This document shows positions 21,098 to 30,615 of a stretch of DNA of 64,000 bases, piece after piece; the stretch's first letter is position 1; the number at the start of each line of letters is the position of its first letter. This stretch comes from Candidatus Kapaibacterium sp. GTDB lineage: Bacteria > Bacteroidota > Ignavibacteria > Kapaibacteriales > JAEUSM01. The position numbers and the translations under genes are program-made. The notes below the pieces were generated by a model, which worked only from the letters and a program-made list of their open reading frames with translations, was not told the DNA's origin and searched no databases. The stretch lies in assembly GCA_016788785.1 (NCBI GenBank), contig JAEUSM010000007.1, positions 186,001-250,000 of the forward strand, read 5' to 3'.

Positions 21098-21217
21098 TTA
21101 ATCTTCAGAATCATCTACTTTTGGTGGAGTTTTTAAGATTTTCCAAAAGAAATATCCTGGAATAGTGATGAAAACTATATTCACACAAATCGCCAAAATT
21201 AATGCTTGTGTTGTCAT
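21098..21217 (-). CDS. NSS-transporter small subunit (MetS-like micropeptide)
   Basis: A 39-residue peptide read from the reverse strand: MTTQALILAICVNIVFITIP at the start, then GYFFWKILKTPPKV and a short acidic end. It is one hydrophobic helix of about 24 residues with a charged tail. Its ATG overlaps the TGA stop of the NSS transporter by four bases (ATGA), so the two are translationally coupled. In Corynebacterium glutamicum the NSS-family methionine transporter MetP needs a small membrane partner, MetS, encoded next to it; position, size and topology match. The specific homology is by analogy. Confidence 0.75.
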   Translation of the reverse strand: MTTQALILAICVNIVFITIPGYFFWKILKTPPKVDDSED

Positions 21218-22875
21218 TTTGTTACTCCTTCAGCCGAAAGATGTAATTTTGCTCTACGTACAGTTGCTATATAAATTAACAAACAAATAAATGCAAATAG
21301 CAATGTTAGGAATAATCTCGTAACATCTATGTAAAACATTGATGTTGGTACTCCATTTTGAAACCAAATGATTGATTCACCAATATGAAACAACTGTTTT
21401 ACAACAGCATTTTTATCAAATTCCCAACCTTGTCCACTAAATAGTAAGGAAGTTTGAGTCAACCAATCGTTTCCTTTGGGCGTAATAAGGTTTCCTAAGA
21501 ACACAAACAGAAGGAAAAATGGAGTGATGTATTTGATGATAAATTTATAGATAGTTGGCACTTTCATTGCTGCACCATCTGTAATTTCTTTCCAACCTTT
21601 TTCTATTCCTAAAACCCAACCAAAAAGGATAACTTCTGCAAAAGCAAAAATGACCAATGAAAAAGTTCCAGCCCAATAATCATATTCATCGAAAACTCCA
21701 TTTTTGAAAAAAATGACCGTTGGTATTCCCATAATCAACACGACAAGTCCAAACGTCCATGAAGATTTTGATTGTGACCATTTGAATTCATCTTTCATAA
21801 ATGCAACCCAAGGTGTTCCCATTGCTAACGAAGAGGTAATTCCTGCAAAGAAGAGTAAGCCAAACCACATGAAACCACCAATGGTACCAAGAGCAGCACC
21901 CCACTGAGAAAACAAATAGGGCATTGTTTGGAAGCCCATTGCAAAGCCTGCGTTTTGCTTGACCCAATCCAATCCCAAATAGCCAACAGAAATTGGAATA
22001 ATAATCGCTGCACCCAAAACAACTTCTACAAAACCATTCATCCATCCTGCAGACATTGAACTCAGGGCAATATCATCGTGTGAACGCACATAAGCTGCGT
22101 AACTATGGATAGTTCCCATACCAATTGACAAGGTAAAGAAAATTTGACCTGCAGCCGCAACCCATACTTTTGGGTCGTATAAACTTGAGTAAACTGGATT
22201 CCAGAGGAAATTAAACCCTGCCATCGCATCACAATCTGTACAACCTGCACTTGCACCACTTGTTCCTAAAGTCCAACCACGTAATGCGAGGAAGATACCA
22301 AAAATAATGAGGATTGGCATTCCAATTTTTGCTGTTAATTCAATCCCTTTTTCTAACCCTCGAGATAAGATATATACATTTAATACTAAACAAAGAATAT
22401 AAAAGATTATGGCTTCAAAAGGTATTCCAGTTGTTGATGTAAATACATCTACATAACTACCAAAAAATTGAGCGACTTGAGCTTGCGATAAACCACTGAA
22501 CGTTTGTGCCAAAGAGTGATATGCGTAGGATAATGTCCAAGATTCGATGTAGCAGTAATAAGCCGCAACTGCAATATTTGTAAAAATACCGAATGCACCT
22601 ATATATTTCCAAAATCTACTTTTTCCGATGCTTTCAAACATAAATGGTGTAGAGTGATTACCATTTCTTCCACCATACCGACCAATAGACCATTCAATCC
22701 ACAGGAGTGGAATTCCCATGAGTAAAAAACAAACTAAATAGGGGATGATGAACGCACCACCCCCATTTTGAACTGCTTGCATGGGAAATCGTAGGAAATT
22801 TCCTAAACCTACTGCATTTCCAGCCATTGCCAATACTAAACCAACTCTCGAGCCCCAATGTTCTTTTTTACCCAT
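21214..22875 (-). CDS. Neurotransmitter:sodium symporter (NSS) family transporter, MetP-like
   Basis: A 553-residue inner-membrane transporter with about 11-12 membrane helices. The first helix carries the family sodium/substrate signature GNAVGLGNFLRFPMQAVQNGGGAF, and LSIGMGTIHSYAAYV matches the unwound helix 6 region. It imports an amino acid or similar small solute with sodium. It begins 16 bp after the CHASE-PAS protein gene and ends overlapping the 39-residue subunit gene. Grouping with a receiver protein and a CHASE sensor suggests regulated uptake; the substrate is unknown. Confidence 0.92.
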   Translation of the reverse strand: MGKKEHWGSRVGLVLAMAGNAVGLGNFLRFPMQAVQNGGGAFIIPYLVCFLLMGIPLLWIEWSIGRYGGRNGNHSTPFMFESIGKSRFWKYIGAFGIFTNIAVAAYYCYIESWTLSYAYHSLAQTFSGLSQAQVAQFFGSYVDVFTSTTGIPFEAIIFYILCLVLNVYILSRGLEKGIELTAKIGMPILIIFGIFLALRGWTLGTSGASAGCTDCDAMAGFNFLWNPVYSSLYDPKVWVAAAGQIFFTLSIGMGTIHSYAAYVRSHDDIALSSMSAGWMNGFVEVVLGAAIIIPISVGYLGLDWVKQNAGFAMGFQTMPYLFSQWGAALGTIGGFMWFGLLFFAGITSSLAMGTPWVAFMKDEFKWSQSKSSWTFGLVVLIMGIPTVIFFKNGVFDEYDYWAGTFSLVIFAFAEVILFGWVLGIEKGWKEITDGAAMKVPTIYKFIIKYITPFFLLFVFLGNLITPKGNDWLTQTSLLFSGQGWEFDKNAVVKQLFHIGESIIWFQNGVPTSMFYIDVTRLFLTLLFAFICLLIYIATVRRAKLHLSAEGVTK

Positions 22876-22891
22876 AGGTTAGTATCAATGA

Positions 22892-25060
22892 TTAATCGAA
22901 TTGAGAAATTGGAATATGTATTTGTGCTAAATTATGGTCGTTTTCACCGAAAGACTCATATACCACACCACCATTCATACGTTGAATTTGTGTTTGTGCA
23001 ATAGCTAATCTAAACACAATAGAATTTTGGTCTAAGTGCATTGACTCTACTATATTTCGCTGATTTGCTTTAAAAACACCAATCTGAGATGAAGCTAATG
23101 GATTTATAGGAGTCATAATTTGAACTTCCATTACGTTCTCATGTGGATTTGGCTGAACTTCTATCTGAACTGTCGAAGGAGCAGAAACTGTTTCAAACAT
23201 AGCACCTAAGATATGTTTAATTGATTCAACAAAAACTTCTTTGTTTGCAAATACTCTATCTTCTCCGTTAGAGTTATATTCCACAGAAATTTTTGGCAAA
23301 TCTGGATTATCCGCTTTTACTATCTTTAACGCTTCATCGATGACATTTTTCACAGTAACGTATTCTTTTACCATTTTAAATGTTTTATTTTCAAAGGCAA
23401 CATCGTTTATGTCTGTCATCATTGACAACAATTGTTCAGTAGAATCAAGTGTTGTTTTTAGAAATTCATCTTTTTCCGATTCAGTTTCGTATGCTTCTGC
23501 TTCTATCAATTGCAAGAAACCAATGGTAGAAGAAAGTGAATCTCTCAAATCTTCACTCAAATGAATCATATATTCAGTTTTGGTTTGGCTTTCTTTGATA
23601 ACGTATTGTTCTGCCAATTGAATTTGTTTTGAACGAAGAATAATTTGATCTTCCGCTTCTTTTTCTATGGTTACATCACGACCTATCGCAAAGAACAAAC
23701 CATCAATTTTTGAAACAGTAAAGTGGAAACTTATCCAACGAGCTACTCCGTCTGCACCAGTTATATGATACAATTTGGTATGTGTTTGCTCATCTTTGGA
23801 TTGTTGCAACAATGCCAAAAGCTCTGTAGAATCCTGCTCACCAATTAATTTAGAAATAGACTGCCCAACCAATTTATCAGGCTCCATACCAAAAAGCAAT
23901 TGAGACGCTGGATTCATATTCTTCCATATACCATTCATTTCTAATGATGCAATGATATCTTTTGATGAATCGACAATTCTTCGTTGGCTTCTTGTCATTT
24001 CTTCTGCCAAATTCTCTGCTCTTGCACGAGAAGTGATTGTTGAGTAAACAAATCCAAAGAATAAAAACGAAGCAAACCCACCACCAAAAAGGACAATATA
24101 TGGAACTGCATTTGCAAATCCAGCAGCAAAATTTGGTTTAGAAGAAAAGTGTAATTCTAATGATCTATTTGCTAATTGTAATGTTTTAACATCCTGAAGA
24201 TTCGAAGATTTCATTGCATCTTCTGTGAACCCTTTGGATGTAAATATTCTTTTCATTGAACCATCAGAGGCTTTATCTAAAAATTCAAAGCTCACTAAAT
24301 CATCGGAGGCTACTTTTGAACCAAGTACAGTTTCAAAGAAATTTTTTGCGTCAATTTCTAAAACTATGACTCTTGTTTTTGGTTTTACTTTTGCAAATGG
24401 ATTATTTGGATCGTATTCAGAATCATCTGGAGACGGTTTGTTTTCTACTTTTAACACCAAATAAAATCCAAGAGTATCTTTTCTCACTTGATGGATTGCA
24501 GATGCTGAAATAGATTTTGTGCTTAGTGCCTTTTGAATAGTAGTATATAAATTTTTATCCTGAGAAACATCATAACCACATTTATACACATTTTTGGATA
24601 ATGGTACTATAAACGTAATTGGGAAATAGGATTCTCTTGATCCTTCTGGGAAAATTGTATATGTTTGATCTAATTTATAATCAAATTCATTCGAAAACAA
24701 TTCACCACGAGTATTATGGATAAATTGTTCTTTTTGCGATTCTTGAATTTCAGGAATGTAGGAAATACTGAGGATATATGGTCTGGTTTCAACAGGGATA
24801 GAGCCATATAATTCAAAAACCCCTTTTACAACCTCTACTAAGGATTTGTAAAGAGATTTCATCGAAACCATTACTTCTTCTTGTTGCTGAACGCCCAAAT
24901 CAAGGCGTTGCATCACAGAACTAACAGCTGCATTGAATTCAACTTTTCTTTCAGCTTCTACTTTGTTAGATAAAAACCACCAAGCACCTATAGAAAGCAG
25001 TAAAAGAACCCCTAAGGTTAGATATGCTGGATATGTTTTAGCAAATGTAATTTTTTTCAT
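22892..25060 (-). CDS. CHASE-PAS sensor with degenerate histidine-kinase core
   Basis: A 722-residue membrane sensor. A first TM (about residues 13-31) is followed by a periplasmic CHASE1-like domain to about residue 320, a second TM (about 322-345), a PAS domain (about 360-490) and a coiled H-box-like region. Where kinases have Ser-His-Glu-Leu-Arg the sequence is Ser-Glu503-Asp-Leu-Arg, so the phospho-accepting His is absent. The N-box Asn is also missing (HILGAMFE, about residue 618), and the glycine-rich ATP-lid boxes are not recognisable. It is therefore a pseudokinase. It is 44 bp after a receiver-domain gene and 16 bp before the NSS transporter. Confidence 0.85.
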   Translation of the reverse strand: MKKITFAKTYPAYLTLGVLLLLSIGAWWFLSNKVEAERKVEFNAAVSSVMQRLDLGVQQQEEVMVSMKSLYKSLVEVVKGVFELYGSIPVETRPYILSISYIPEIQESQKEQFIHNTRGELFSNEFDYKLDQTYTIFPEGSRESYFPITFIVPLSKNVYKCGYDVSQDKNLYTTIQKALSTKSISASAIHQVRKDTLGFYLVLKVENKPSPDDSEYDPNNPFAKVKPKTRVIVLEIDAKNFFETVLGSKVASDDLVSFEFLDKASDGSMKRIFTSKGFTEDAMKSSNLQDVKTLQLANRSLELHFSSKPNFAAGFANAVPYIVLFGGGFASFLFFGFVYSTITSRARAENLAEEMTRSQRRIVDSSKDIIASLEMNGIWKNMNPASQLLFGMEPDKLVGQSISKLIGEQDSTELLALLQQSKDEQTHTKLYHITGADGVARWISFHFTVSKIDGLFFAIGRDVTIEKEAEDQIILRSKQIQLAEQYVIKESQTKTEYMIHLSEDLRDSLSSTIGFLQLIEAEAYETESEKDEFLKTTLDSTEQLLSMMTDINDVAFENKTFKMVKEYVTVKNVIDEALKIVKADNPDLPKISVEYNSNGEDRVFANKEVFVESIKHILGAMFETVSAPSTVQIEVQPNPHENVMEVQIMTPINPLASSQIGVFKANQRNIVESMHLDQNSIVFRLAIAQTQIQRMNGGVVYESFGENDHNLAQIHIPISQFD

Positions 25061-25104
25061 TGAACGTTTTTTTGAATAAGTATACGATTTATCAACAAAG
25101 AACT

Positions 25105-25509
25105 TTAGGAAGATTTCTTTTTATTTTCAGTAAACTCTACCACTTGCTCTACAAAGGTATTAGCATCAATCGGCTTTGCTAAAAAACCATCGAACCCAAG
25201 TTCGTCTACAAATTTTTGTTGAGGATTCTCTGGGGTGACACTCGTTACAGCAATAACGGTCAATTTATCTCCATTGGGAAAGCTTCGAATTGCTTCTAAT
25301 ACTTCTCTCCCATTTTTATCAGGAAGCATCATATCGCAAGTAACGCTGTATAAGGTTTGGTGATTATCTTTCAACCATTCTATTGCAGGAATTGCTGCAG
25401 CAAATTCGACTGTTGCAAAACCTTTTTTCTTAAATATAACTTTATAGAGTTTTCGTAATAAATCGTTATCGTCAACGATACAAATCGTATTTGTTGATTC
25501 ATCAGCCAT
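25105..25509 (-). CDS. Stand-alone response-regulator receiver domain
   Basis: A 134-residue CheY-like receiver with no output domain. The acidic pair D13-D14, the phospho-acceptor D59 (VTCDMMLPDKNG), the switch Thr/Ser in AVTSV and the conserved Lys in AKPI are all present, so it should be phosphorylatable. It is first in an operon with the CHASE-PAS pseudokinase, which cannot donate phosphate by the usual route; another kinase must do so, or the pair works by binding alone. Confidence 0.92.
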   Translation of the reverse strand: MADESTNTICIVDDNDLLRKLYKVIFKKKGFATVEFAAAIPAIEWLKDNHQTLYSVTCDMMLPDKNGREVLEAIRSFPNGDKLTVIAVTSVTPENPQQKFVDELGFDGFLAKPIDANTFVEQVVEFTENKKKSS

Positions 25510-25631: not shown

Positions 25632-27176
25632 TTAACGGAAGAAAACAGAAACTCTATTGTTCGAATTGTCTGTCGCAGGTTGTTTTGCTGGTCTTGTATC
25701 TGAACGACCTGCAACTGTAATTCTATTAAGAGCTATCCCCTGATTAAGAAATATCCTCGCAACTGCTTGAGCTCTTGTCGTAGAGGCAGTTTGTTTATTT
25801 CCTTCAAAATCTGAGTCTGTATGTCCCTCAATAGCTATTCTTGCGTTAGGGTTTGCTTTCATGTACTCAATGATTTTATTGAGATTTCCTGTATTTGATG
25901 GGTTTAAACCTGTCGGAGTGAAATTGATAGTTACTGAAGCTGGACGCCCAGTGGTAGGTTGAACGACCGTTCCAATATTATCTAACGTATTTTTGTTCTC
26001 GTTTTGAGCAACAACGACAGGTACACGTTTCGGTTCAGCAGGTGCTGATTCATACGTAACAAATCCATAAGTCAAATTTCCAGTTAAAGTGCGTCCTCTA
26101 ATTTCATTTTCACTTGTAATAACTGAAGCTAAAATGGGGAATTTATTCGTTGAAACGATTCCGCCTATAAATTCAATTTTATCATCAGAAAGTTTACTAA
26201 GTACAGCAATGGTTCGTTGAATAGATGGATCGTATGGGTATCGTTTTGACATTAATATTTCATCATCTCCAATTTTCACGGTAACACCAGCTCGGAGGAA
26301 GGTATTATTCCATGATGATTCCATAAATCCAGCTTGAGTAGTACCAACAGTCGCAACTATATATGGACTAATTTTGAACCGTTGGGTTTGCATGTTATCT
26401 GCAACAACAATATCCCAACCTGCACCTGCATGAATTGTCAAACGAGAAAGCGGATTTGTAGAAACTCTTCGAAGGATATCAATTTGAGACGTATTGTCTT
26501 GTACTTGGAAAAACTGAGAGAAGGAACTTACTAAAATTTCTGCAGACAATCCACCCATTAAAAACAATCCTGGAGGTAATTCAAGAATGTCTAGGTTGTA
26601 TCTGGCAGAAGGCATTACCGTTAAATATTGGAAGTTAGAGCTTGTTTGAAACTCTCGAATATCTTGAATATTAATTGGTGTAGCATCTGTAAAAAGTGAT
26701 CTGTTTTCATAAATCAAACTCAAACTACCACCCCAACGTTTTCCCGGACGTTGCCAATCTCCTGTGAGACCAATAAACCAACCATAGCCATTGCCACCTT
26801 TAAAATTGATAACATCTCTATAGATAGAATCATAGGGTGCAACATCCTTACGAGGTAAATTTAATGAACCAAAATTAGCAATAAAACTTGTACCTAATGT
26901 TATACCATACCACCAAGTACCGAACTGACGAACTTGTACAATCGTGTCATTTCTTTCATTAACATAACCCATGGAATCACGTCCCATATTTCGCTCAATA
27001 ACATCAGGCAAGATATATCTGGTTGTATCAATATAGATGGGAGTATCGGTAAAGACTGAATCTTCACTGTCAAGTCTTACAGAACCCGATACTTCAGCAG
27101 AATGCAAACTAACAGTTAGCCCTACAAACCACAGTGATAGCAATAATACGAATGTTGGTAGTGTAGATAGTTTCAT
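25632..27176 (-). CDS. OmpA-family outer-membrane protein
   Basis: A 514-residue exported protein. The signal peptide covers about residues 1-27. Residues 85-300 alternate aromatic and polar residues as in an outer-membrane beta-barrel. The C-terminal OmpA/MotB peptidoglycan-binding domain covers about residues 410-514, with IAIEGHTDSDFEGNKQTASTTRAQAVARIF and the RSDTRPA loop. It would anchor the outer membrane, and whatever binds it, to the cell wall. Its ATG overlaps the stop of the T9SS-type protein gene by one base (TAATG), so it is translationally coupled to the surface-protein operon upstream. Confidence 0.9.
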   Translation of the reverse strand: MKLSTLPTFVLLLSLWFVGLTVSLHSAEVSGSVRLDSEDSVFTDTPIYIDTTRYILPDVIERNMGRDSMGYVNERNDTIVQVRQFGTWWYGITLGTSFIANFGSLNLPRKDVAPYDSIYRDVINFKGGNGYGWFIGLTGDWQRPGKRWGGSLSLIYENRSLFTDATPINIQDIREFQTSSNFQYLTVMPSARYNLDILELPPGLFLMGGLSAEILVSSFSQFFQVQDNTSQIDILRRVSTNPLSRLTIHAGAGWDIVVADNMQTQRFKISPYIVATVGTTQAGFMESSWNNTFLRAGVTVKIGDDEILMSKRYPYDPSIQRTIAVLSKLSDDKIEFIGGIVSTNKFPILASVITSENEIRGRTLTGNLTYGFVTYESAPAEPKRVPVVVAQNENKNTLDNIGTVVQPTTGRPASVTINFTPTGLNPSNTGNLNKIIEYMKANPNARIAIEGHTDSDFEGNKQTASTTRAQAVARIFLNQGIALNRITVAGRSDTRPAKQPATDNSNNRVSVFFR

Positions 27177-28507
27177 TAACGTAATACCTGAAGTTTAATG
27201 AGAGCACGAGATAGTTCGACGGCAGGGTCATCTATTGGATTAGCAACAAACCACATTCCATAAAATCCTTGTTGAGATAGTATTGAGGCATTGTACGTAA
27301 AGTTGTATGTTCCTCTGCTTACTTGCTGCTTGTCCATAATTGTCTCAATTTCAGAACCTTTGCTATCAAACACTTTCACTGTTAGCAACACATCATCCTC
27401 AACAAAATATTCTACATTTGTTGATGAAGATAATGGGTTTGGATTTGCTTGAGCATAGGAGATAATTGCATTTGGAACAATCAAGTCTGTTGTATCGTGA
27501 AAAATAGTATCATTACGGAAATTTTGTGAAAACAGACTATACACATACTGTTCACCTCGATAATCAACCGTCTCATCATAAGAGTACAGTCTTCCAGTTT
27601 TTGAAGTACCTAATCCATCAAATTGAGATATTTTAGTTAATGTTTGACCAGGAAAATTACACGTAGTACATTCACCTAAATATTCTTTGAGTACATTGTT
27701 ACTATTATCTAAAAATCCAAATGGGCGTATTTCTCTTTTGACTAAGAATCCTTTATTAGATACTTCCGAAAGAGATTCCCAAGAAATTCGAACTTTCTTT
27801 TGACCAAGGTAGGTAGCTTTGAAATTTATAATTTGCATTCCCTGATCATCTAATTTTGAACCAATATACTTAGTAGAAATAGATCTGCCATCTTTCATTT
27901 GCACATTATTACTTTCTGTGTGCCATGTTACACCGGAGAGAGAACTATCACTCATTCGCTTATAAGCAATTGCTTGATAATAGTCTGTTGGGAAATAGAA
28001 CGTCAAATCTGACCCTTGAATCAATGTATCCGTTGTAATTCTAAAACGACCTAATAGAATGAAATTTGAACTATCTGCATTTAGAATTGGAATCATCTCA
28101 GTATTGGAAAATGTATCCGGTCCTAAAATAGCGACACTAAATCTTGTTTTAACAGAATCAGTGATTGATTGTGTTGCAAGAGTATATTTTACTAATTCAT
28201 TCGAATTATAGACTTCAATAGGTAAATCTGAAGTATCTAAATAGGTTATAGATGAGTTTGGAAAACGAATAAGATTTCCATTTGGTCCAGTTAACGACAA
28301 TTGAAATGTTCCATTCGCCAAATGCGACCAAATACCAGATACACGACTTATCTCAAGATTGAAATCTAAAGAATTTGGCGTTGCTTGAGAAACATCTGAA
28401 ACTCTCACTAACGAAACAGTATCAATAGTTTGCGACGTTACGGTGTTTGTTGTAGTAACAAACAAAAGAACTATAAAACTTACTAAGGGTAAAAAGTATT
28501 TCATCAT
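27176..28507 (-). CDS. Secreted protein with T9SS type A-like C-terminal sorting domain
   Basis: A 443-residue protein with a signal peptide (about 1-27, ending VTSQ). The C-terminal 85 residues follow the type IX secretion CTD pattern: NPNPLSSSTNVEYFVEDD, then a VKVFDSKGSEIETI strand, RGTYNFTYNAS, a GFYGMWF turn and a final basic RALIKLQVLR. Such domains direct export through the outer membrane and are usually cleaved on the surface. The middle has beta-sandwich character and a CTTC cysteine pair of unknown role. Its ATG overlaps the upstream dockerin-like gene by four bases (ATGA). Confidence 0.8.
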   Translation of the reverse strand: MMKYFLPLVSFIVLLFVTTTNTVTSQTIDTVSLVRVSDVSQATPNSLDFNLEISRVSGIWSHLANGTFQLSLTGPNGNLIRFPNSSITYLDTSDLPIEVYNSNELVKYTLATQSITDSVKTRFSVAILGPDTFSNTEMIPILNADSSNFILLGRFRITTDTLIQGSDLTFYFPTDYYQAIAYKRMSDSSLSGVTWHTESNNVQMKDGRSISTKYIGSKLDDQGMQIINFKATYLGQKKVRISWESLSEVSNKGFLVKREIRPFGFLDNSNNVLKEYLGECTTCNFPGQTLTKISQFDGLGTSKTGRLYSYDETVDYRGEQYVYSLFSQNFRNDTIFHDTTDLIVPNAIISYAQANPNPLSSSTNVEYFVEDDVLLTVKVFDSKGSEIETIMDKQQVSRGTYNFTYNASILSQQGFYGMWFVANPIDDPAVELSRALIKLQVLR

Positions 28508-30615
28508 GGTTTTACTAACGAAGTTTTATATCTATTATTCCAAGAAACGTTGAAGTCTTTGGTAATGGAAATTCCATTTAAATCTGTATCAACATTGAAA
28601 TATCCTTCAATGTTATGTGATTGCCATATTAAATCAAAATCAGCTTTATCGATTGATCTGTCACCATTAACATCACCGGAATACAATCCGAATATCAAGG
28701 CACCAGTTAATTCATCTCTATCAATAGGTTTTAATGAACTATTTCCGCCAAATATCCCTTGTCCATTCGTAAGGTCGACATTGATAATTGGAATTTGTGT
28801 TTGGTTACCCCCTTGTTGGAACAACAAGAATGAATTTGAAGTTGTAACAGCCAAGTGATTTCGATGGTGAACAGCAACGAAATAACGTGTTTCGTCAAAA
28901 TTGATAATCACAATTGGTTGACCATTCAAATCAACAACCTTACCATCATAGCGTAAAAATCCAGTTCTGTAAATAGATTTTGCTGGGTCAGGAGCTACAT
29001 TGTCATTACGTAATTCAATAACTACCCAATCAACAACTGAATCTGGCACATTATTTACAAACGTTACGCTATATAATGGGTCGAGATTATAAGGATAAAT
29101 ATTGGGTGGTCTTTTTGGGACAGTATTGTTTTCTCGTAAATCTAACGCCATAGAACCATTTCTATATGGACCTTCTAAATAGAATTTCACTGCAAGTTGT
29201 GCCGCTTTCGCAATATCAAGACCAACAGCAAAAAATCCAGTTTGTTGCATATTGCGTGTAACGCTATATCCCCAACCAGATGGGTCTAATTTTGGAACTT
29301 CAGACGTTGGAAGTGGTCCCCAAATATTCCCTGTCCAATTCTGAAGTCGTAATGATTCAAACGGATTAAGATTATTATCTTCATTCATTATTGGGTCAGC
29401 CATTCTATGTTTCCAACCATACCCAAAAGTGTATGTTATCGCATTGGAAAGAATTTGGTTACTACCATCTAAAACTTCAATTGCAAATGTTCTTTTGATT
29501 TTTTGATCACCTAATGGAAAGATATGAAATTGATTTGGTTTCGAAGTAATTTTCATCGAAGCAAATTTCAATCGTTCCGCAGGATTTTCGAAGATAATAT
29601 ACGTATATCTATTGTTGAATACGGTAGAGTCAGTCAATTTAGTTCGTTTCATCGATCCAGCAACCTCTGCATCTTGCGTAGTAAATTGTGGATGATTTTC
29701 CGAAGTATATGTTAACACATACGTTGTAGTATCAGGTACAAAGTATGTAAAAATATTCGATTGTAAGCGTAACGAATCGTTAACTGTTACAGAACGATTA
29801 AGCGTTATCGAGCCAGTATTTTCTACTGACAGTTTTTGTAGTACCAATGTATCTACTGGCAATTCTTCACCAGTGATAAGTGGGTTCTGATTAATATAGC
29901 GAACATTCGCAGTTTTTTCAAATATTGGAGCTGATTCAATCGAACCAATATTTCTAATTATTGTAGCAGAATCTCCAATTGTGAGATTATTTTGTTGTGA
30001 ATTTTGTAATGCACCTTCATTGAGAAGAAGTTCTTTTTTAACTTTGAAACCACCACCATTGACAACAGCAGCACCTTCAGAGTTATTGAGACCTAATAAA
30101 TCAAATTCTCCATTCCCTTCAACAGTTTGTTTGGCAGTGCCTTCCATCATTATATATTTGCTACCGATTGCTTTGGCTGTATTTTTCAACCAAGAACGAG
30201 CAGAAACATATTGTTGGTCAACCGAGAAGGTTGTGGAATCAATAATTACTAACGAATCTCTTGTAATAAGAGGATTATTTTGACCTAAAGAATTTGGCAA
30301 TGCTTCAACGGATTTTTGTGCCTTTCCTGACACTTCCAATTGATTAAATATAATTGTTGGAACTCTTTGTGTTTGAGTTTCAACTTTTGCTTTAAATTCA
30401 ACGCGACCACCGATAGAATCAGGTAAAGCTTTAACTTGACCATTTTTGATACGAATAGTACCAGAATTCGTCAAATTTTTAGCACCAGTATTATCAAGGT
30501 TTGTACCTTGAGCAAACAAAGGAGTACTATCCACTACCATACACGATAGCGATACAAACAACAGAACCAAAAGCTCTTTGGTTGTTTTGCTTAATGAAAA
30601 AGAATGTTGTTTCAT
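28504..30615 (-). CDS. Secreted protein with dockerin-like C-terminus and HRNHLA segment
   Basis: A 703-residue exported protein with a signal peptide (about 1-36, ending LFAQ). The N-terminal half is Asn/Gly/Thr-rich beta repeat sequence. From about residue 480 a segment common in large Bacteroidota surface proteins appears: FYLEGPYRNGSMALDLR, VDWVVIELRNDN, and VAVHHRNHLAV. The C-terminus holds two calcium-loop-like repeats, GDVNGDRSIDKADFD and DTDLNGISITKDFN, as in type I dockerins. It likely forms part of a surface complex. It lies downstream of the GC-rich hairpin at 30644-30685 and overlaps the next gene by four bases. Confidence 0.78.
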   Translation of the reverse strand: MKQHSFSLSKTTKELLVLLFVSLSCMVVDSTPLFAQGTNLDNTGAKNLTNSGTIRIKNGQVKALPDSIGGRVEFKAKVETQTQRVPTIIFNQLEVSGKAQKSVEALPNSLGQNNPLITRDSLVIIDSTTFSVDQQYVSARSWLKNTAKAIGSKYIMMEGTAKQTVEGNGEFDLLGLNNSEGAAVVNGGGFKVKKELLLNEGALQNSQQNNLTIGDSATIIRNIGSIESAPIFEKTANVRYINQNPLITGEELPVDTLVLQKLSVENTGSITLNRSVTVNDSLRLQSNIFTYFVPDTTTYVLTYTSENHPQFTTQDAEVAGSMKRTKLTDSTVFNNRYTYIIFENPAERLKFASMKITSKPNQFHIFPLGDQKIKRTFAIEVLDGSNQILSNAITYTFGYGWKHRMADPIMNEDNNLNPFESLRLQNWTGNIWGPLPTSEVPKLDPSGWGYSVTRNMQQTGFFAVGLDIAKAAQLAVKFYLEGPYRNGSMALDLRENNTVPKRPPNIYPYNLDPLYSVTFVNNVPDSVVDWVVIELRNDNVAPDPAKSIYRTGFLRYDGKVVDLNGQPIVIINFDETRYFVAVHHRNHLAVTTSNSFLLFQQGGNQTQIPIINVDLTNGQGIFGGNSSLKPIDRDELTGALIFGLYSGDVNGDRSIDKADFDLIWQSHNIEGYFNVDTDLNGISITKDFNVSWNNRYKTSLVKP

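Follow-up and report, generated by a model that had tools for sequence, protein, structure and literature searches.

The 722-aa protein encoded on the minus strand at nt 22892–25060 of the window (the whole 64,000-nt stretch of Candidatus Kapaibacterium sp. DNA analysed here) is best explained as a signal-controlled, receiver-binding membrane pseudo-histidine kinase, a reading to which we assign a probability of about 0.5. The absence of standard kinase activity in this sensor is much surer than its mechanism. Its catalytic residues are lost, its pairing with a stand-alone receiver is conserved in related genomes, and the catalytic residues of the receiver are intact. The residues thus support the view, put forward in a preliminary description of this DNA, that the pair is not a standard two-component system.

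Domain Organization of the Sensor and Loss of the Catalytic Motifs

The features of the sensor gene are the following:

22892–25060, minus strand: CHASE-PAS pseudo-histidine kinase (sensor), 722 aa (ORF, Pfam, orthologue alignment and model)
24323–24781, minus strand: CHASE domain, residues 94–246 (Pfam; predicted between two long helices)
23660–23974, minus strand: PAS domain, residues 363–467 (Pfam)
23396–23563, minus strand: HisKA/DHp match, residues 500–555, under the Pfam cut-off (Pfam, profile-profile alignment and model)
23531–23554, minus strand: degenerate H box, residues 503–510, EDLRDSLS (orthologue alignment)
22904–23368, minus strand: CA domain, predicted Bergerat fold without N, G1 and G2 box, residues ~565–719 (alignment and model)

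Both sensory domains named in the preliminary description were recovered by Pfam, CHASE (PF03924) with an E value of 4.2e-14 and PAS with one of 1.6e-7, and the long helices predicted to flank CHASE in the structure model correspond to the layout of a CHASE receptor. The HisKA match scored 22.4 bits versus a cut-off of 26.9 bits, and no Pfam HATPase_c match was found in the sensor at E ≤ 1. Glu503 (codon nt 23552–23554) occupies the His column both in the orthologue alignment and in a profile-profile alignment with 14 kinases from the sensor's own genome that carry G boxes (probability 99.5, 254 columns). In the latter, E503 stands opposite the His, HILGAMF opposite the N box and NSIVFRLAIAQ opposite the GTGLGL region, and the two alignments bear out the replacement of His by Glu503 and the loss of N and G boxes as first read. 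Compared with a HisKA kinase, the sensor lacks the phospho-accepting His and the N, G1 and G2 boxes, the DHp hairpin and the Bergerat fold being present in the model. Its genome yielded 27 HisKA domains, 26 of which carry the His; that of the sensor is the sole exception. A frameshift is excluded, since the ORF is open throughout and orthologues align nearly end to end.

Another His, H500, lies one helical turn before site 503. A His at site 500 was found in 1/56 sensors with a receiver (the window member), in 0/17 without and in 0/3 of unclassed status. Being non-conserved, in a family where no member showed GxGLG, H500 was rejected as an alternative phosphosite.

Two further HisKA proteins of the same genome, L142 (G000:C17:178037-178219) and L153 (G000:C6:198559-198738), keep the His, and a simple pattern search did not detect the G1/G2 pattern in them; to judge from their sequences, they are possible further ATP-site-dead kinases.

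Predicted Fold

The full-length sensor was modelled by AlphaFold2 with 53 aligned rows (mean pLDDT 85.0, pTM 0.48); domain placement in this model is unsure because of the low pTM. Modelled alone, as the preliminary description had suggested for the C-terminal part, the DHp-CA portion reached a pLDDT of 89.3 and a pTM of 0.80 with a kinase-like fold. This model matched HK853 (Foldseek E 1.1e-12), the ThkA CA domain 3a0z (Z 15.3, rmsd 2.8, 143 aligned), DivL 4q20 (Z 14.7, rmsd 5.8, 171 aligned) and RetS 6dk7 (Z 14.3, rmsd 4.4, 181 aligned). The highest-ranking structures were pyruvate dehydrogenase kinases (Z up to 16.1), and these matches are taken as a shared fold, a predicted likeness that says nothing on function. 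According to this high-confidence prediction, the CA domain would be kept as a Bergerat fold from which the nucleotide-site motifs are gone.

Distribution of the Sensor Family

Sensor orthologues (E ≤ 1e-60) were found in 75 of the 123 genomes of the order, one per genome and including that of the window. In a phylum sample of 395 genomes, hits that covered most of the profile with 784 bits or more were restricted to this order; no full-length relative was found outside it (best 153 bits, with partial profile coverage), in a search that scored the two best first-look candidates per genome and would thus miss a lower-ranked full-length relative. A non-exhaustive scan of GTDB contigs, based on a single peptide pattern, found no relative with a single-protein query and 33 loci with an alignment query. 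One of these, L100, carries the title Desulfobulbaceae and is likely a mis-titled record of the order member G482. In the single-contig genome G003, only a C-terminal sensor fragment with in-frame stops was found (L056, G003:C1:974808-975596), an apparent loss. For pseudo-histidine kinases and for histidine kinases in Kapabacteria, the matches listed in open-access searches included no paper about this sensor family (titles and abstract starts).

Residues at the Former Phosphorylation Site

Residues were counted in 76 sensors with a DHp, i.e., 55 of the first 56 loci plus 21 more; L055, which has no DHp, was left out, and L051 was included with a CA domain unaligned past residue ~635. At site 503 the letters are His in 45, Phe in 14, Asp and Arg in 6 each, Tyr in 2, and Glu, Thr and Leu in 1 each, His being thus absent in 31/76. 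The preliminary description had suggested a survey for orthologues keeping Glu: orthologues do exist, as described above, and the Glu is confined to the window member (1/76), whose family, f1, is represented in the set by this one genome. The position following the former His (H+1) is acidic in two sensors, the window member and L202, the latter with SHEMRN as H box and likewise without G boxes. At H+4, Asn (59) prevails over Ser (7), Thr (6), Asp (2), Lys (1) and Gln (1). Neither a Pro at H+5 nor a GxGLG was present in any of the 76 sensors; one off-position DxGxG (DKGIG, in L184) precedes the N-box position and was excluded as a G1 box. When 52 members were scanned at E ≤ 0.01, HisKA was detected in 44 and HATPase_c in none.

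The degeneracy, which the preliminary description had missed, is family-wide, and the sensor family as a whole is, as far as its residues tell, kinase-dead, its ATP site being no longer recognisable. A 54-row tree, a quick one with SH-aLRT support only, a long-branched window row and many rows of unusual letter make-up, requires a minimum of 11 letter changes at site 503 and of seven changes between His and not-His. Glu is one of several replacements at this labile site; the loss being family-wide and the site labile, Glu503 is therefore not the defining feature. Measured over 52 rows, sequence conservation peaks in the helix that surrounds and follows the second membrane segment (mean majority fraction 0.61); DHp helix 1 comes next (0.57) and the CA domain last (0.37).

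The same residues bear on the alternative that the family, perhaps including the window member, consists of signal-controlled receiver phosphatases whose kinase half has been lost. A study of four HisKA proteins, CrdS among them, found that kinase activity depends on the acid at H+1 (needed in CrdS for kinase activity only) and phosphatase activity on the Thr/Asn at H+4; CrdS N375D was phosphatase-dead and H371A kept most phosphatase activity (PMC3510030). Asn or Thr at H+4 in 65/76 sensors, together with the H+1 acid missing in 74/76, reproduces the pattern of the kinase-minus, phosphatase-plus CrdS mutants, and by this residue rule much of the family would therefore be kinase-minus and possibly phosphatase-plus, the window member being neither. 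A Phe or Tyr at site 503 in 14/56 receiver-bearing sensors also fits a phosphatase. The window member, however, has Asp507 at H+4, a position at which the Thr/Asn of a HisKA-derived phosphatase is thus lacking and at which the Asn-to-Asp change kills CrdS phosphatase (PMC3510030). Moreover, PhyP of Sphingomonas, an HRxxN protein with a degenerate ATPase, was named a phosphatase on similar grounds, yet no such activity was seen when it was tested; it turned out to be a phosphotransferase, renamed PhyT, that receives its phosphate from a single-domain receiver (PMC5898713). We consider the phosphatase reading unlikely on balance.

PhyT also provides the model for a phosphotransfer role, in which the DHp His would take the phosphate from the receiver and hand it to an output regulator, as in PhyT, Spo0B or ChpT. 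PhyT combines HRxxN, a degenerate ATPase, a membrane anchor and the single-domain partner SdrG (PMC5898713), and the sensor shares with PhyT/PhyP the membrane anchoring, a putative periplasmic sensor, the degenerate ATPase and a single-domain receiver partner. In ChpT (PMC3433190), and in Spo0B as cited there and in PMC5898713, the helical hairpin that forms the dimer is likewise followed by a degenerate ATPase-like domain. Within the family, the His present in 45/76, the prevalence of Asn at H+4 (59/76), the degenerate CA domain and the stand-alone receiver beside many sensors agree with such a role. On the other hand, PhyT/PhyP keeps its phospho-accepting His and shuttles phosphate, unlike the window sensor, and Spo0B and ChpT keep theirs too, ChpT having in addition the kink Pro (Pro38) found at H+5 in none of the 76 sensors. 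Phosphotransfer is impossible at Glu503, 31/76 sensors have no His and H500 is not conserved; on the whole, this reading is decidedly improbable.

Partner Receiver and Gene Neighbourhood

The genes around the sensor are the following, transcribed on the minus strand in the order 703-aa protein, 443-aa protein, OmpA-family protein, receiver, sensor and NSS transporter:

25105–25509, minus strand: stand-alone receiver, 134 aa, 44 bp upstream of the sensor (ORF, Pfam and residue check)
25632–27176, minus strand: OmpA-family protein, upstream neighbour on the same strand in 36/56 loci, its link to the pair unproven
27176–28507, minus strand: 443-aa protein, conserved-block gene (cluster c3, 31/56 loci) with a sub-cut-off secretion-tail match (Pfam and synteny)
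28504–30615, minus strand: 703-aa protein of the co-oriented block, no Pfam match at E ≤ 0.01
21214–22875, minus strand: NSS/SNF transporter, 16 bp past the sensor, outside the conserved unit (Pfam and synteny)

The receiver retains every catalytic residue (D13/D14, D59, T89 and K112, as in Response_reg), as the preliminary description had read. A receiver lies directly upstream of the sensor in 32 of the 56 loci of the first set, and is linked to the sensor in 17 of 21 later loci; synteny counts over the 56 loci are lower bounds, contig ends cutting some of them. The catalytic positions are kept in 32/32 linked receivers of the first set, one having Ser for Thr. In 5 of 6 genomes of family f6 the best match to the receiver is encoded away from the sensor. 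With Arg506 (see below) and synteny kept, and with all these linked receivers catalytically intact, the role of allosteric receiver binder, one of those first suggested for the sensor, is the most economical one.

L080 has an additional receiver-like ORF, of 138 aa, 9 bp downstream of the sensor. Cluster c4 takes part in the upstream block in 21/56 loci, and its single scanned member is a WD40 propeller. The upstream block (OmpA-family, 443-aa and 703-aa proteins) may be a surface structure served by the sensor-receiver pair. A promoter and terminator scan gave nothing decisive (10 promoter-like sites versus 18.6 in shuffles), and a plasmid search with the receiver returned 40 records, every one below 60% identity.

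The preliminary description had correctly placed the NSS transporter 16 bp after the sensor and had added that the sensor may gate it. Co-transcription of the two genes is likely because of this short gap, which speaks for gating. However, the transporter adjoins the sensor in 1/56 loci, and of 99 genomes 25, including that of the window, have NSS matches (E ≤ 1e-20), which in the other 24 (among them G095, without a full-length sensor) never lie beside the sensor. The gating proposal is thus unsupported and barely credible.

A third role would be the modulation of a partner kinase, the sensor pairing with or inhibiting an intact kinase of which the receiver would be substrate or feedback. In L072, L075 and L083, the next gene downstream of the sensor belongs to cluster c33, and the scanned c33 member (L067, not adjoining its sensor) is a REC-HisKA-HATPase_c protein, a candidate phosphodonor kinase for the receiver; the 26 His-bearing HisKA domains of the window's genome would offer other partners. 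RetS is a pseudokinase acting on other kinases, and we know of no pairing of either RetS or RocA with an adjacent stand-alone receiver. RocA, a pseudokinase that is kinase-like as the sensor is, acts through another kinase, CovS (PMC7028121). No such kinase adjoins the window pair, however, and the receiver is the neighbour most often kept, which makes partner-kinase modulation improbable here.

Receiver-Facing Residues and Presence of a Receiver

A receiver was scored as present when linked to the sensor or found elsewhere in the genome at an E value of 2.1e-24 or better (56 sensors, 49 of them linked). Absence, scored for 17 sensors, relies on one query (E ≤ 1e-12) and local scans, and two of the genomes so counted, G041 (92% complete) and G060 (70% complete), may hide a receiver; the contig-truncated L184, L185 and L198 were excluded from the comparison. 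Among the 56 sensors with a receiver, Arg506 is present in all, and His/Phe/Tyr at 503, Asn/Thr at 507 and Thr at 510 in 55 each. Among the 17 for which no receiver was found, the corresponding figures are 10, 4, 7 and 3, and the only two that keep the His are both of family f5. The pattern H/F/Y-x-x-R-N/T-x-x-T is thus maintained at each variable site in 55/56 receiver-bearing sensors, the window member being the lone exception.

Fisher tests of receiver presence versus His, Arg and Asn/Thr gave p values from 1.2e-5 to 3e-7, ancestry being ignored. On the 54-row tree, with five starred independent pairs, the link of the receiver to His, H+4 or H/F/Y was not significant; the pairs went the same way in 2.3, 2.0 and 2.7 cases, respectively, and the opposite way in 0.5, 0 and 0 (averages). 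Shared ancestry could explain the association. As residues go, those that are constant in the sensors would point at the receiver.

The window member is the only receiver-bearing one in which three receiver-facing positions are broken (E503, D507 and S510), departures that may mark a new binding mode or the start of decoupling from the receiver. These broken positions, the long branch of the window row and the fragment with in-frame stops to which the sensor is reduced in the relative G003 would agree with a decaying gene that is losing its function. The full-length open frame, the confident predicted fold and the kept synteny argue against decay, which we regard as very improbable.

Proposed Mechanism and Comparison with DivL

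In the favoured reading, that of a receiver-binding pseudo-histidine kinase, CHASE and PAS would respond to a signal by shifting a DHp-CA core that has neither ATP-site motifs nor a phospho-accepting His. The DHp helix of this core would still offer a receiver-docking face, and its output would be to bind the stand-alone receiver of the adjoining upstream gene, which other cellular kinases presumably phosphorylate. A core with Asn or Thr at H+4, as found in much of the family, could also be a receiver phosphatase, and in His-bearing relatives it could be a phosphate shuttle for the receiver; many members indeed look phosphatase- or phosphotransfer-competent by their residues. In the window member, which has Glu in place of the His, Asp in place of Asn at H+4 and Ser in place of Thr at +7, binding or sequestration only would be expected, as in DivL, and the protein looks binding-only and DivL-like.

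DivL of Caulobacter, which works with DivK, is the closest working model. DivL has Tyr at the H site and binds DivK-phosphate, for which R553 (+3) is needed; in the available part of the study it has neither kinase nor phosphatase activity, and weak binding of an ATP analogue was measured (PMC4211667). The window sensor shares with it the PAS domain, the DHp-CA fold, a non-His H site and the Arg at +3 (R506). The two differ in that DivL has Tyr rather than Glu at the site and a measured weak ATP-analogue binding, and CHASE is not mentioned for DivL in that part of the source (PMC4211667). The likeness seen to the alphaproteobacterial DivL is one of structure and H-site residues.

A broader view, possible in our opinion although doubtful, is that of an order-wide receptor family in which kinase activity would have died first (ATP site, H+1 acid and helix-kink Pro), the DHp being kept only as a receiver-reading surface and the His being free to change at least seven times; with the acidic triad E503/D504/D507, the window member would then read the receiver by charge, perhaps with a preference for its unphosphorylated form. 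To our knowledge, the bacterial pseudo-histidine kinases (DivL, RocA and a few others) are isolated examples. The present sensor family offers natural phosphosite variants with His, Phe, Tyr, Arg, Asp, Thr, Leu or Glu, with and without a receiver, in related genomes, a series that lets one ask what a dead kinase does, i.e., whether binding, dephosphorylation or phosphate shuttling is under selection.
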